Origin: Bacillota bacterium
GTDB taxonomy: Bacteria > Bacillota > DTU065
NCBI GenBank assembly: GCA_028708605.1
Contig: JAQVYS010000006.1
Span: forward strand, 1-59,402
DNA length: 59,402 nt
Direction of reading: 5' to 3'
The notes under the pieces were generated by a model. The model was not told the origin of the DNA. It ran no database searches and saw only the letters and a program-made list of their open reading frames with translations. Both the position numbers and the translations under genes were made by a program. Positions 36,122 to 52,292 of this stretch are shown piece by piece; the first letter of the stretch is position 1; each line of letters starts with the position of its first letter.

Positions 36122-36592
36122 TTATGTGTCAAGGTTTACCACATCTTTAGCCACATGGTAAACTAATTCATCAGGAAATCCCCGGCGTAGAAGATAGCCA
36201 CAGAGCTTTATATAGGTCTTTTCATTATCTCTCTGTAATAACTTAGTATATTTTTGAGCCACTCGAAAAGCTAGCTCTTCTTCAAGCTCTTTTGGATACT
36301 CCTCTTGAAGTACTTTTTCTATGAGTGTGCCCTGAATACCTTTTTTACGTAACTTGCTAAATACTAATCTTTTTCCTTGCGGATTTAGAAGCAGTGTGTC
36401 ATGAATAAAGGCTCTGCAAAACCGGATATCATCAATAAAGCCTTGCTCTTTTGCCCATGCAATTGCTTCGTCTGTTACCTCAACGGAAAACTTGGCCAAT
36501 TTAGTTCTTATTTCATGTTCGCTATAGAATCGTTTGGATATTAGATTTGCTATCCTTTTCTTAGCGAGAGGCAAAGATGAACTATCATTCAT
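36122..36592 (-). CDS. recX: regulatory protein RecX
   Basis: This 156-aa protein of three-helix repeats ([63 protein letters not shown]) restrains RecA filaments. Its ATG overlaps the last 8 bp of recA. If it is translated by coupling to recA, its yield could depend on ribosomes crossing the spliced recA message. Confidence 0.92.
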
Positions 36593-36980
36593 CTAAAGAA
36601 TCCTTTCCATCATTTTCATCTTCCATACGACCTTTATATCCAGGTAAAGAGGTTTGTTCTCTTATTTTGTGCTCGATCTCGTTACATATCTCTGTATTTT
36701 GTTTTAAAAATTCTCTACAGTTTTCTCGTCCTTGTCCAAGTCTCATATCTCCATAGGAAAACCACGAACCGCTCTTTGTTACAATTCCTAGTTCTACAGC
36801 CACATCTAAAATGCATCCTTCTTGAGAAATACCTAAGCCATAGATAATGTCAAATTCTGCGACTAAAAATGGTGGTGCTACTTTATTTTTTACAACCTTA
36901 ACACGAGTACGGTTTCCTATAAACTCACTACCTACTTTTAGTGATTCAATCCGCCTTATATCAAGACGTACAGAAGCATA
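36585..36980 (-). CDS. recA: recA exon 5 (396 nt)
   Basis: Codes for the last 131 residues, from [17 protein letters not shown] to the acidic tail [13 protein letters not shown]. The acidic C-terminus is normal for RecA. Overlaps the recX start. Confidence 0.93.
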
Positions 36981-39900
36981 GTAGGATAGGGAGATGTCGC
37001 CTTGCTGAGTTGCCCCAGTAGGTTTACTTCGCCCCTCCTCCGAACCGTACGTACACCTTTCGATGTATACGGCTCTCTAATTGTCAAACCAAGTCCTTGA
37101 AGATATCGCTATACAGTTTTAAGTAAAAAATGTTTTAACTGGACAAATATCTCTAGACTTCTGTCATGTTTCCACTTTTTGATATGTTATTTACATAAAC
37201 CTTCTATTGAACCAAGACAGAATTTTGCAAAGCTAAAATCACTTATAGCTAATCTCCATTTTGGACTCAATTATTCCTAACACTATTTCAGAATTTTGTA
37301 TGGCCTTTGCCACATCCTGTTTAGTTTTAGGAATATGACAATCTGTTTCCCTTCGCCATGTAATGGGCTTTCCCTTGAGGTCGTTACTCTCGTTCAGATG
37401 TTTTACATCCTACCATCTCTGACTACTACGGAAACTCCGTTACCATATCCGATATTCAGGTTCTTTAACCATAGCTGTGTAAATTTTTGTATATCACCAC
37501 AGCTTTCGGACTTAGGTAATCCCCGTTTAGCGTATCGTAGACAATTCTTAACTTTACTTAGGTTCCCGTTCGACCATTTTCTCCAGAGGAGATGAGAGGA
37601 ATCCTTCCATCTAGCATAATGCCAAATTCTAAGACATCTGCGTGATTCCTTCATACCATACTAACATCAATTAAGATATGAGCCGCACTTTCTAGCCTCT
37701 GATCTGGGTTTAAAGCAGTTTAGCTTTGACCTTATAAAGTATTTTTGGACTCGACATTCAGTTGCAGGGGTGATGTTCCTCCCGACTTATGCCTTTCCAA
37801 GCATGCTACTTTCCCCTTCAAGTTTCCCATCTAGGTCAGCTTGGTGTCCACAAGAGGATGGTTCTCTTGGTTGTCACGTTTTTGCGGAACAACATTCTAC
37901 GATGCACCACAAATAGATAACCACCTATTTTTACGGGCGCACGAACTTTAGTGCTCTACCACCTGGTGTTGTGTGGAGTCGAGATTAGTTTCCCGCTCCC
38001 CGAACCGTGCGTGCGAGTTTCCCCGCACACGGCTCTCCAACCGGACGCGTTGACGGAATCGTAATTCCTTCAAGCGTTGGATAGCCTAGCATAAAACGTT
38101 GGTAGACTTCTTTTTTGCCAGCTTTATCATATTTTTTTAGTAAAAAAAGGTAAACTCGTTCTCTAACGTAGCTATCTAAGTAGCGACTAAGTCTGCTGTC
38201 AGTACAAAAGCCAAAATCCGTATGCCAAGCAGAGATTGTCTTTGAAATCTCAATTGCTGTATACCGCGCACTAAACCCTGTTTTGCTACGTTCTGTTAGA
38301 TGCTTAACGCTTTTTTTAAACATTTCGATAGCTGACTTTGCAGGTAGTACTTTACAGATAGGATCAAGTTTTATCAGATAACCTGCAAAACTTAGATCAG
38401 AGTTTTCTGGTAGACCATCGATCTTTTTACTTAAGCTAAGCATCTGACCGTCTTTAATAAATACTGCAGTGTTTTTTAGTTTGAGAAGTGGTGCAAGTTT
38501 TATTAAGACATCTCTTTCCTTGATTTTTGCAGCTTTCCAGACGAGATCAATAAGTTCATTCTCTACTAAAACTAGTTTAAGTAGCCCAAAAAGTTCCTTT
38601 TTCAAAATCCCAAGATCTAGCTTTTCTACTTCAAGCTTAACTAGCTTTAAATCTGTAGCCTTTAATGCCTTATAAACCTCCAATCCAGTATCTTCTTTAA
38701 CTATTGCTTCGATTATTTCTAAAACAGTATCCACTAATAGAGAATCTACTTCATTACCGTCTAGAGGTCTATATGTCTGATTTAAAAGAGACTTGGAAAG
38801 AGTCCTTGCTGAGTTCTCACTGATTCTTAAAGCTTTCGCTTTTTTTACTAAATAATCATAATTGGCTATGGCTTGAAAAAGTCTACCTTCGCTTGCTAGT
38901 CTTTTCAACCACTCCTGCTTTCGTAAGGACACAGGTCATTCCTCCCTACTATTTGCGAGTGACCGGTCTGTCTCCCTTCGCAGAAACTTCCTACTACTAC
39001 GAAGACTCCGCCCCTTCTGCCCTTTGCAGAAGGTTCCTTTGTTCTCCTCTTTTGCTCTATTAACGATGGATTTAGGCTCCGCCTATGTCCGTCCCTTGCC
39101 CTGTTAAGGCATCCAAAACCATACCGGAGGGTAAGTTTTGAAAACGGGTGTTTTTTGGCATTCTACGGACCTCAAACAGCGATTCCTCTCGTAGCCATGT
39201 CCATCAGAGGCTAGCAGTTTTAACCACATTCCCGCCCAGCTCCATGCATTGTTACATGTGGGTTTGGCCTTTAGCATTAGATACTCTAACGCCTCTACAA
39301 AAGAGAAGCTTCAAAGCGCACCTCCGGATTGCCAAACATTATTCCAACTTTCTCCCGAATCTGATTGATGAAAATTACCAAACATTTTGTCTTGCCAACT
39401 ACACCTGTTAGTTTTCTAAGAGCCTGAGACATTAGCCTTGCTTGAAGACCAACGTGGGTATCACCCATTTCACCTTCAATTTCAGCTCTTGGCACTAACG
39501 CAGCAACTGAGTCAATAACAACGATATCGACAGCTCCACTTCTTACTAAAGCTTCTGTAATCTCTAATGATAGTGATAGGTAACGCTTTGTTTGTACTCT
39601 GCGTTTTCCCCCACTCCACACCGTGCGTGCAAGTTTCCTCGCACACGGCGTTCCATCGAAAAGGAATTTCCAAGATTCTAGGTGTGTTCTTTCTACACCA
39701 CAAAGATAAGTATCAATTCCTCTCCGACTCGTCCCCTTCACTCCTACTAGTTTTTCTCTTTCTAAGCTTACATGGCATATTAGAGCTAGTGCTCATCGCT
39801 ACTATGGGACGGCTGACTCCCAGTTAGATCTCATAGAAATCGTCCTTCTCCCTCTAACGGGCCTCACACGTTCCCTTAACCATATCCCTTGTTTTACGAT

Positions 39901-41532
39901 TCCTTAGGTGCCCTCTCTACTCGGCCAAATCCTTTATCTGATAAAGTCCATACTCATTAAAGGCAGTAACAAATAGATGATCCATTTATTAAAGTAACTT
40001 CCGCAAACAAGAAACGGTTGTTAATTTGATTCTGCCGTACCAGGCATTTTTAAACACCGAGCTTTATGCAAGGGTTCCTATGCGTCACCATAGATTCGTT
40101 TTTAAGGAGTCCCGCATCACTTGTGCCAAAGCATTTGCTTAGGCTACTTGGATTACGACCTCTCCTAGCTTCGTACAACCTAATTGAACGATAAATAAAG
40201 CTGCACGTAGGGGTATTAGACACTTAAACTTGGACTAAAATTTAAGGAAAGGACTCTCACCTTTCAGTTCTGGTTAAGAGTTGTTCTAGATTAAACATAG
40301 CCTTCGCTTTCCTGCTTTAAGCAGTTATACGAAAACGTGTCGCACCTTGCTCTCCAGTATCAGGCTGAGATACAAGAAGATTGTCGATATCTACGCCAAG
40401 ATTCTTTGCATACGCTGGATTTAATGATAGTGATAGGTAAACGTCATCCTCGTCTATGTTCATAAATAAATCCATTTATACGTTAGGAGCGTTTTTCCCC
40501 CACTTCACACCGTACGTGCAAGTTTCCCTGCATACGGCGTTCCATCGGAACAAGCAAATCTTTTGAAAAGTCTTTGTTCCGACTATGCCCCTTTGCTAAA
40601 GGTAGTTTTCTCCTCCTTCGCACATTACTGTACGTAGTAACTAGCGGCTACCTCTAAACGCTACTACGGGCTGCTGCCCCTCATCTGAAACAGTCATTTC
40701 CTACTGTTTAGAACCATCAGATTTCACTCTCTTTAACATGCTCTGATGAGGTTCACTTGTACCGCATCTCCTATCCTTACATAGCTCCCTTAGACTTCCT
40801 CTCTAACCCGTCAGCCGTCTTTTTGCCTTGGTTGGTGAACTAAAGACAGAAAACCTTTGTTGGGTTTAATTCAGTTAATGTAAACACGAATACAATAACT
40901 GAGACTGAACCTCCCATTAGAAGGCGTGAGCCTTTTTTTTGCACTCACTATGCTTTACGAGCCGTAATTTAAGGATTCATTTTCTTAGTCATAGAAGCTT
41001 TCTGGACTCCCGACTACTTCTCTAACCTCTTTTCAGGTCTGATTTTCGCCGACCTCTCCGAACTTCGCACGGTAATACAGTGAAATATTACCACACGTCG
41101 GGGGATTAGAGCGTGTGACCCAACTTTGTCACAGGGCTAGCACTTCCCCAGCCATTTCGAAGATGCAGTTAGGACAATTTTGTCCTGCTAGATTTAGATA
41201 GTGTTTCCACTAAGTTTGCTCTAGCAACAAGTCGTACCGTGTTCAGCATCGATAAAGGCGGCAACTCCGCCTAATTTTTGTGCCTCTGCGATTGCATGCA
41301 AAGCAACTGTAGTTTTTCCAGAACTCTCTGGTCCAAAAACCTCGATCACTCTACCTCTTGGCAATCCCCCAACACCCAAAGCTAAATCTAATGAAAGAGC
41401 TCCTGTTGGAATAGTTTCTACATCCATTGTGTGGTTTTCACCAAGACGCATAATTGAGCCTTTGCCAAAGTCTTTTTCTATTGATGTGATAGCACTTTGT
41501 AAGGCTCTTTCCTTAGCCTTAATGTCTGACAT
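36585..41532 (-). CDS. recA: recombinase A, split into five exons by four group II introns
   Basis: RecA drives homologous recombination and SOS induction. The gene is a join on the minus strand of 41532-41238, 40426-40346, 39569-39322, 37972-37943 and 36980-36585 (1050 nt, 349 aa). I set junctions by reading the conserved protein across each gap. The joins give [38 protein letters not shown] and KF/YASVRLD, with no residue missing. Walker A (GPESSGKTT), [11 protein letters not shown]1 and L2 are intact, and the length equals ordinary RecA. Each gap starts GTGCG (GTACG in the first), contains a group II domain V and ends in AT or AC. ThpR lies upstream, recX overlaps the end. Splicing itself is inferred. 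Confidence 0.92.
36981..37942 (-). mobile_element. group II intron 4 in recA (962 nt, no ORF)
   Basis: Starts GTGCGCCCGT and ends TATCCTAC. Domain V is at about 37042-37075 (GAGCCGTATACATCGAAAGG then ACGTACGGTTC), followed by a domain VI-like hairpin with GGAGGGG/CTCCC. No credible protein is encoded. Domain V resembles that of intron 3 more than those of introns 1 and 2. Confidence 0.86.
37943..37972 (-). CDS. recA: recA micro-exon 4 (30 nt)
   Basis: Ten codons, [10 protein letters not shown], exactly fill the L2 region missing between exons 3 and 5. It begins right after an intron end CCAC and is followed at once by GTGCGC of intron 4. Confidence 0.9.
37973..39321 (-). mobile_element. group II intron 3 in recA (1349 nt, encodes a maturase-like ORF)
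   Basis: Starts GTGCGCTTTG and ends CTCCAC. Domain V is at about 37999-38036 (GAGCCGTGTGCGGGGAAAC then CGCACGGTTC). It carries the 315-aa ORF at 38932-37985, which reads through domain V and stops 12 nt before the 3' splice site. Confidence 0.87.
37985..38932 (-). CDS. degenerate group II intron reverse transcriptase/maturase without the YADD palm motif
   Basis: This 315-aa intron-encoded protein starts at GTG 38932, 7 nt after GGGAGGA. It resembles group II intron proteins in order: the N-terminal RT part ending [12 protein letters not shown], a domain-2-like [21 protein letters not shown], then AGYLIK...[16 protein letters not shown] (thumb-proximal) and a maturase X-like region [10 protein letters not shown]...[21 protein letters not shown]. 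The stretch that should hold the GTPQGG and YADD motifs is shortened to about 40 residues with no YADD. No HNH endonuclease is present. It probably kept RNA binding/splicing and lost cDNA synthesis. The last 16 or so codons overlie domain V. The homology is judged by eye. Confidence 0.7.
   Translation of the reverse strand: MSLRKQEWLKRLASEGRLFQAIANYDYLVKKAKALRISENSARTLSKSLLNQTYRPLDGNEVDSLLVDTVLEIIEAIVKEDTGLEVYKALKATDLKLVKLEVEKLDLGILKKELFGLLKLVLVENELIDLVWKAAKIKERDVLIKLAPLLKLKNTAVFIKDGQMLSLSKKIDGLPENSDLSFAGYLIKLDPICKVLPAKSAIEMFKKSVKHLTERSKTGFSARYTAIEISKTISAWHTDFGFCTDSRLSRYLDSYVRERVYLFLLKKYDKAGKKEVYQRFMLGYPTLEGITIPSTRPVGEPCAGKLARTVRGAGN
39322..39569 (-). CDS. recA: recA exon 3 (248 nt)
   Basis: Codes from [20 protein letters not shown] through the Walker B-like DSVAALVP and loop L1 to [16 protein letters not shown] at the start of loop L2. 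Confidence 0.93.
39570..40345 (-). mobile_element. group II intron 2 in recA (776 nt, no ORF)
   Basis: Starts GTGCGACACG and ends CTATCACTAT. Domain V is at about 39617-39652 (CGCCGTGTGCGAGGAAAC then ACGCACGGTG). The domain V-VI part is close to that of intron 1, and both are inserted at G^CATTA, so the two appear to be sister copies. Confidence 0.86.
40346..40426 (-). CDS. recA: recA exon 2 (81 nt)
   Basis: Codes for [20 protein letters not shown] then QPDTGEQ, the helix-strand region after the Walker A domain. The first two bases (CA) complete the Ala codon begun by the last G of exon 1; the final G starts the next Ala codon. Confidence 0.92.
40427..41237 (-). mobile_element. group II intron 1 in recA (811 nt, no ORF)
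   Basis: Starts GTACGAC (third base differs from the usual GTGYG) and ends CTATCACTAT. Domain V lies at about 40509-40544, with the CGCCGT...ACGGTG helix and a GGAAAC loop region. It has no reverse transcriptase ORF, so it would need a maturase from elsewhere. Its 3' end nearly matches intron 2. Confidence 0.85.
41238..41532 (-). CDS. recA: recA exon 1 (295 nt)
   Basis: Codes for residues 1-98 plus one base, from [11 protein letters not shown] through Walker A to FIDAEH. The ATG follows AAAGGAGG. Unspliced, the frame runs only five codons into intron 1 before a stop at 41221. Confidence 0.93.
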
Positions 41533-51124: not shown

Positions 51125-51256
51125 CTCCCACTTACGATTAAATTCATGAAAATCAAGTTCAAATCCTTTAGTTTTTTGTCTTCTGTTTAAAAAACAAAGT
51201 AAAAGTTAATCGAGTAGGTAGCCTCTAGGTGATCAGCCTAGCAGTTTTCCTCTCAT

Positions 51257-51287
51257 AAAACGGCACATACGAGCCGCGTATACCGCT
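51257..51287 (-). other. domain V remnant of a decayed group II intron
   Basis: AGCGGTATACGCGGCTCGTA to GTGCCGTT forms a domain V-like hairpin and is followed by GAGAGG. It lies 3' of the broken reverse transcriptase at 51297-52292, in the place where domain V should be. Its sequence differs from the domain V copies in recA. Confidence 0.6.
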
Positions 51288-51296
51288 TTTTAAGAT

Positions 51297-52292
51297 CCTC
51301 AGGCAGTTATTTCATAAACCTGCCACAAAACCCCAACATTGTATTTTTCTAAGTCGATTAGACCTATTTCGTCAAACCACTTATTCGGTAAGGCTAGACT
51401 GAGTAAGGAGATCGCTGAGTTTCTCCATCGATTCATGGAGATTTTCACAAAATTACCTTTGTAGCCTCTTTGCCTTATTGTACAGTGGAGAGATTTCCAA
51501 CTTTTCCACTCACGCATTTTTTATCCTAAGTCTTCGACAAATCCAACCCAACATTACTCTCAACAAGATTTTACAGTTCGTAATTGAAAGTAACCACTCC
51601 ATCCCCTGAGAAATTGGTTTAGTTCCTCTACACTTCTCCCGCTGTTTCGCGGAGTTAGTTTCCTAACTCGGTTTTTAAACCGTTTGATGCGTTTGGGATG
51701 TACTGCAATATACTTTCTGTGTACGACTACGCCTAGAAAAGGTACTCCCTTATCTAGGCTAGTGATGTGAGTATTGGTTTTATTTACCACAAGCTTTAAG
51801 TCATTCGCTAGCATTTGTTCTGCTAGTTACTGATATCTATTCGCCTCATTATCATTTCGGGCAAAGTTAAAATATCGTCCGCATAACGCACGATTCTTAT
51901 CCCTTGAGCTTTCATCTTCTGATCAAATTCATCTAGATAGATATTCGCCAATAACAGAGAGATCACTCCACCTTGTAGACTACCTATCGCTATATCTTCA
52001 AAAGCTCCATCTGTAATTACACCTACCGTCAATGATGCCTTGATCAGGCTGAGGATTCTTCCATCACTAATATTCCTGTGTACTCCCTGGATAATTAGTA
52101 CATGATCTAGGCTGTCAAAACACTTCGATAGGTCCATGTCTACTACATAGGTGAAGTTGAACCTTTTAAGGAACAGCTCTGCTTTTGCGATCGCATGTTG
52201 ACATGAACGATTTGGACGGTAGCCGTAGCTCGATGGGTGAAAGAAAGTTTCAAAGATAGGCTCAATCACTTGACGCAGAACCTGCTGAGCAC
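51297..52292 (-). pseudogene. broken, 5'-truncated group II intron reverse transcriptase/maturase
   Basis: Three fragments in different frames make one RT. The first (from 52292) has QQVLRQVIEPIFETFFHPSS, YGYRPNRSCQHAIAKAELFL, DLSKCFDSLDH, GSLQGGVISLLLANIYL and RYADDI, then shifts frame. The second has LKLVVNKTNTHITSLDKG..FLG and LNQFLRGWSGYFQL. The third holds the maturase/C-terminal part (WKSWKSLHCTIRQRGYKG to LPNKWFDEIGLIDLEKY). At least two frameshifts and one stop are seen. The first 70 or so residues and all upstream intron domains are missing; the copy begins beside the ald terminator. It keeps YADD but is clearly dead. Confidence 0.88.

Follow-up and report, generated by a model that had tools for sequence, protein, structure and literature searches.

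The recA gene in the window, a stretch of 59,402 nt from a Bacillota bacterium of the DTU065 lineage, is divided into five exons by four group II introns. The genome to which the window belongs (G000) is a metagenome-assembled genome (MAG) of 2.16 Mb in 141 contigs, 92.9% complete. Very probably, these introns are vertically inherited and immobilised, and are spliced with maturases lacking a reverse transcriptase (RT), probably acting in trans, as a counterpart of the MatK arrangement.

Structure of the split recA gene

The recA gene runs on the minus strand from 41532 to 36585, and all recA features below lie on this strand. Following splicing in silico, its frame was uninterrupted only once segments of 811, 776, 1349, and 962 nt had been removed, confirming the original prediction to the base; the exons (295, 81, 248, 30, and 396 nt) rejoined to the predicted 349-aa RecA with zero residues lost. 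Left unspliced, the reading frame meets a stop 17 nt inside the first intron.

Exon 1 (41238–41532; 295 nt) carries codons 1–98 and the first base of codon 99, and gave in-frame RecA matches of 93–100%. It is followed by intron 1 at site p98 (40427–41237; 811 nt, GUACG...CACUAU), which has no ORF and gave Rfam matches for domain V/VI (40542–40427) and D1–D4 (41173–40999); its EBS1, CGUGUUU (40888–40882), complements the exon sequence GAACACG. After exon 2 (40346–40426; 81 nt), intron 2 at site p125 (39570–40345; 776 nt, GUGCG...CACUAU), similarly without ORF, was matched for domain V/VI (39653–39570) and D1–D4 (40285–40101), and its EBS1, CUUGUUU (40011–40005), complements GAGCAAG. Exon 3 (39322–39569; 248 nt) precedes intron 3 at site p208 (37973–39321; 1349 nt, GUGCG...CUCCAC, domain V/VI 38037–37973), in which EBS1 CUCCGG (39129–39124) complements CCGGAG and EBS2 UGCCAA (39160–39155) complements UUGGCA. 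This intron encodes an RT-less maturase of 315 aa (37985–38932, minus) with a GTG start behind a conserved GGAGGA. A 30-nt microexon, exon 4 (37943–37972), separates it from the ORF-less intron 4 at site p218 (36981–37942; 962 nt, GUGCG...UCCUAC, domain V/VI 37077–36981), of which EBS1 GAAUUU (37629–37624) complements AAGUUC with one G-U pair. Exon 5 (36585–36980; 396 nt including the stop) overlaps the start of recX.

The domain V hairpins that had been noticed in the bare sequence, along with GTGCG or GTACG starts and AY ends, were recovered with covariance models. Using Rfam RF00029, which spans domain V to the 3′ end and has a cut-off of 40 bits, all four introns were found within 36981–41237 at 56.9–68.9 bits, with matches ending on the 3′ splice sites. 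The 5′ end reads GUGCG in three of the four and GUACG in intron 1, in both species having it; 3′ ends are AU or AC. The D1–D4 model (RF02004) matched introns 1 and 2 only, so no firm class is given to introns 3 and 4. None of the tests in this analysis assigned an intron to class IIA, and group IIC, marked by a short IBS1, no IBS2 and insertion behind terminators, was ruled out by the 6–7 nt IBS1, the IBS2 in intron 3 and the location of sites inside coding motifs. The domain V triad is CGC in introns 1 and 2 and AGC in introns 3 and 4. In domain VI, a putative bulged branch-point A was located by eye 7–8 nt before the 3′ end (CU-A-YYYNAY), and also appears in the consensus fold of the parA introns described below.

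EBS1–IBS1 pairing of 6–7 nt with 0–2 G-U pairs was present in all four window introns. Across the family, 18 of the 28 introns contain within nt 101–380 a perfect complement to the last six exon bases; in a control in which exon ends were exchanged among sites, the rate was 4.3%. At p125 and p168, the EBS1 match is 7 nt long, lies in a hairpin loop and covaries with synonymous exon changes, the pairs being GAGCAGG/CCUGCUC in G004, GAACAGG/CCUGUUC in G002, and GAACAAG/CUUGUUU in G001. Clear IBS2–EBS2 pairing was seen among family introns only in recA intron 3 (UUGGCA/UGCCAA) and nrdJ intron 1.

Covariation was analyzed for recA intron 3 and the parA intron. Of the predicted-structure cells, 98.4% are paired over the first 390 nt of intron 3, and 24–25 pairs were changed on both sides versus 8.8 after shuffling and 2–4 after sliding, counts that are favored by the structure having been taken from the same alignment. 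The parA introns (n = 5, 507–527 nt) share a common fold with 32 compensatory pairs. Judged by these conserved parts, all four recA segments are group II introns.

Distribution in the family and introns of nrdJ and parA

RecA was searched in 101 genomes, comprising five of the family (G000–G004, four genera) and 96 other members of the phylum. The relatives include Clostridia bacterium DTU065, UBA4881, SL1-B34.1, and AS05jafATM_29, and the family MAGs are 85–96% complete. DTU065 represents the class of the same name, sister to Limnochordia within 'Firmicutes G' (PMC11456536). Split recA genes were present in all five family species, mostly out of separate metagenome studies, and uninterrupted recA genes in 94 of the 96 other genomes, the remaining two giving no match.

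Five recA sites are used in the family. Site p208 is filled in all five genomes, and the other four are filled in some species and vacant in sisters: p98 and p218 are filled only in G000 and G001, which belong to the same genus, p125 in all except G003, and p168 in G002, G003, and G004. At these four of the five sites, the codons of other family genera run on without a break, as expected; since vacant sites read straight through, the intron boundaries are independently confirmed. The spliced RecA proteins of the five species measure 348–350 aa and are 82–89% identical. Introns at sites common to all five species are 64–88% identical, and those of G000 and G001 cluster as in the RecA tree.

The introns at p98, p125, and p168 (window 41237–40427 and 40345–39570; loci L034–L037) are ORF-less and have sequence, 3′ ends and the CGC triad in common. 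Because they form one sequence subfamily with this triad, they probably spread within recA. Between p125 and p168 of G004, the domain V stretches share 96% identity.

Domain V searches of the family placed all matches above 54 bits in recA, nrdJ, or parA/soj; in G001, all six domain V matches are inside these genes. The nrdJ gene, encoding B12-dependent ribonucleotide reductase, has an intron after SPTLM in four species and a second after NPCGEQ in three, G001 being uninterrupted at the latter site; these counts leave out G003, of which the contig is too short. In G000, the two nrdJ group II introns lie on contig C9 (3473–7811; locus L038), and the first encodes the second RT-less maturase of this genome (255 aa; L038:6310–7077, minus). 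The parA/soj gene is interrupted inside its Walker A motif, between KGGVG and KST, in all five family genomes, in G000 by an ORF-less group II intron of 516 nt (contig C96, 755–1270; locus L039). Intron sites in nrdJ and parA are identical across the family species, and splicing of both genes in silico yields full-length proteins, with the exception of the G003 parA, the contig of which ends early.

In all 28 family introns, the first in-frame stop was located 12–32 nt past the 5′ splice site. From a random intron position, a stop would be met inside 36 nt with probability 0.53, corresponding to approximately 0.006 over eight sites. TAA, TAG, and TGA interchange between species at one position of parA. 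The early stops would reflect selection against ribosomes entering the ribozyme.

RT-less maturases, splicing and mobility

Species-conserved intron ORFs were found only at p208 (recA intron 3) and in nrdJ intron 1. The recA maturase measures 304–315 aa in the family and carries a GIIM (maturase, X) domain on its C-terminal side, with a conserved domain X; in the window protein, Pfam GIIM covers residues 204–279. Its PDB profile match was 7uim_D (E 2e-6), and its AlphaFold model (pLDDT 78) gave group II intron RTs as best Foldseek matches, with a low TM of 0.41. The nrdJ maturase measures 253–258 aa and matched Intron_maturas2 above the Pfam cut-off in two of four species and just below it in the other two. 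Its AlphaFold model was poor (pLDDT 65) and Foldseek matches were non-significant, the best (E 0.1) being to a group II RT. No RVT_1 match was obtained by Pfam search in the intron-encoded proteins (IEPs) of recA and nrdJ, and motifs of the [YF]xDD type, YADD included, were absent from all nine family IEPs. By their sequence, both proteins are RT-degenerate maturases that have kept the conserved domain X and lost the RT motifs. Identity with MatK itself was rejected, as the protein is encoded in a bacterial recA rather than a plastid trnK and has no RT motif match. Outside the family, no full-length homologues of the recA maturase were found; of 394 genomes sampled from the rest of the phylum, 12 showed similarity, confined to domain X. 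The recA maturase is the sole GIIM protein of G001 and of G003.

The proposed course of events is as follows. The introns are old residents of the uncultured DTU065-class lineage, inherited vertically, with gain and loss at the five recA sites. RNA polymerase would transcribe the entire pre-mRNA, introns included, and ribosomes on the exon would meet the in-frame stop 12–32 nt into the intron, leaving the ribozyme free for folding. Judging from the conserved parts, EBS1 and EBS2 would then grip the 5′ exon for attack by the bulged A of domain VI, after which the exons would be joined. The intron 3 maturase, translated from its own ribosome-binding site, would assist its host intron and probably acts in trans on several others, because the other recA introns and the parA introns have no ORF. 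The probable targets of the nrdJ-borne maturase are the introns of nrdJ, with recA intron 4 as a possible further one; the assignment of introns to maturases by sequence type (profile scores of 24–66 between types) is suggestive only. The number of ORF-less introns beside so few maturases points to probable trans action of at least one of them.

It is unlikely that the introns splice by themselves and that both ORFs are decaying relics without a role. Degenerate IEPs are mostly relics, the intron RNAs retain every catalytic part tested, and C.te.I1, an ORF-less bacterial intron, self-splices without any related IEP (PMC4424553). However, both ORFs are open in every species that has them, over four to five genera, at 53–62% identity to the G000 versions; pN/pS is 0.29–0.53, even omitting the C-terminal part overlapping domain V, and domain X and GGAGG-like ribosome-binding sites upstream of both ORFs are conserved. 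These features argue for maturase-assisted splicing.

A wider form of maturase-assisted splicing, which in our judgment could go either way, is that obligatory splicing has been domesticated in the whole class. Immobile introns in recA, nrdJ, and parA would then be served by two RT-less maturases, each acting in trans on several of them, with ribosome-clearing stops, in a MatK-like state reached independently. DNA repair, dNTP supply, and chromosome partition might in that case be regulated at the level of splicing.

That the introns are currently mobile retroelements which recently invaded recA, relying for RT on intact copies elsewhere that act in trans, is very unlikely. RVT_1 was found in G000 alone, which also holds RT-bearing intron copies on contigs C86 and C93 and a relic at 51.2–52.3 kb; in G002 and G004, surplus domain V matches lie close to contig ends. 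Because of the RT-bearing copies of G000 and the contig-end domain V of G002, mobile multicopy introns may be absent from the assemblies. Yet no RT was found in G001–G004 (four of the five family genomes), the extra domain V copies score 36–50 bits versus 55–74 bits for the resident introns, and orthologous introns occupy identical sites in several genera, with the degree of identity and the tree-like clustering given above. An IEP with an active RT and YADD, the mark of a mobile retroelement, was found in neither the recA nor the nrdJ introns. Recent invasion of recA was rejected on the lack of RT in G001–G004 and on the orthologous introns at identical sites; the introns are probably immobilised and no longer moving.

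Two further observations concern these additional copies. The relic in the window (51209–52290, minus) is a decayed, 5′-truncated, RT-bearing group II element between the genes for alanine dehydrogenase and addB, with a frameshift after YADD and a weak domain V (35.8 bits), and is unlike the recA introns in kind. The extra domain V matches lie just inside contig ends, near base 130 of contigs C8, C56, and C37 in G002 and near base 300 of contig C23 in G004, where mobile introns in several copies would be expected to break an assembly.

An assembly artefact or a dead recA is scarcely credible: G000 is a fragmented MAG, but a split recA recurs in five genomes that differ in their contigs and in the origin of their records, nonsynonymous change in the exons is extremely low with synonymous sites near saturation, and no other recA was found. 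Over the family, pN of the RecA exons is 0.07–0.12 versus pS of 0.61–0.90, and this very strong purifying selection indicates that recA works. On that pattern, the split recA is a functional gene, long under strong purifying selection. A whole-genome RecA search of the G000 assembly returned, besides the exons, one weak distant match (27% identity, contig C135) and no second recA, and a silent second recA was rejected on this result and on the selection on the exons. Two of the ways in which the original prediction might have failed, an intact recA elsewhere and segments that are assembly artefacts, are thus answered by the five split relatives, the missing second copy and the strong exon selection.

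Comparison with known systems

Four introns in one recA had been called exceptional from the window sequence, and the four are real; beyond that prediction, they are old and family-wide, accompanied by introns in nrdJ and parA, carry a single RT-less ORF and look immobile. In the open-access literature, no reports of introns in class DTU065 were found, and against that literature a family-wide orthologous intron set in three genes with two RT-less maturases is new.

A single group II intron in the recA of Geobacillus kaustophilus, correctly mentioned in the original prediction, was described by Chee and Takami (2005), as cited in PMC4424553 and PMC3522654. It likewise lies inside a bacterial recA; as these citing accounts present it, however, it is one active, host-adapted intron, whereas the DTU065 family has up to four, over five sites, immobile-looking and common to several genera. 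In Trichodesmium erythraeum, RIR is reported to carry four inteins besides three group II introns, and a maturase to act on several introns; 17 introns splice there, of which ten are ORF-less (PMC4649490 and references therein). Several group II introns per core gene and ORF-less introns are found in both systems, and the trans-acting maturase is reported there and predicted here. That organism belongs to another phylum and its twintron was reported within one genus only, whereas the DTU065 family has orthologous introns in four genera and maturases without RT motifs.

Bacterial group II introns have been reviewed as short-lived retroelements mostly avoiding housekeeping genes, and organelles as the place where such introns turned stable, splicing-only and maturase-dependent (PMC4424553, PMC3522654); ORF-less group II introns are rare in bacteria (PMC4424553, a 2015 review). 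The same 2015 review names O.i.I2 of Oceanobacillus iheyensis, located in radC and with an IEP lacking YADD, as the sole known bacterial degenerate IEP (PMC4424553). It resembles the present introns in being a bacterial intron in a DNA-repair gene with an RT-defective IEP kept open, but it is a single intron, whereas two distinct RT-less IEP families are maintained over several genera in the DTU065 family.

The DTU065 lineage would represent an organelle-like state, otherwise typical of chloroplasts and mitochondria, in free bacterial genomes, with old orthologous introns in essential-type genes, an exon of 30 nt and site-wise gain and loss. The transition of a mobile element into a host-dependent intron, also proposed en route to spliceosomal introns, would thereby become directly testable in bacteria, and the small maturases lend themselves to biochemistry. 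MatK, encoded in the plastid trnK intron, is RT-degenerate with domain X kept and RT motifs 5–7 alignable, and accompanies ORF-less introns in housekeeping genes. The DTU065 family shares with it an intron-encoded, RT-degenerate protein with domain X, ORF-less introns in housekeeping genes and vertical inheritance; it differs in being bacterial, in its N-terminal remnant, in its host genes recA and nrdJ, in an intron class that no test assigned to IIA, and in a trans action that is as yet predicted from sequence.
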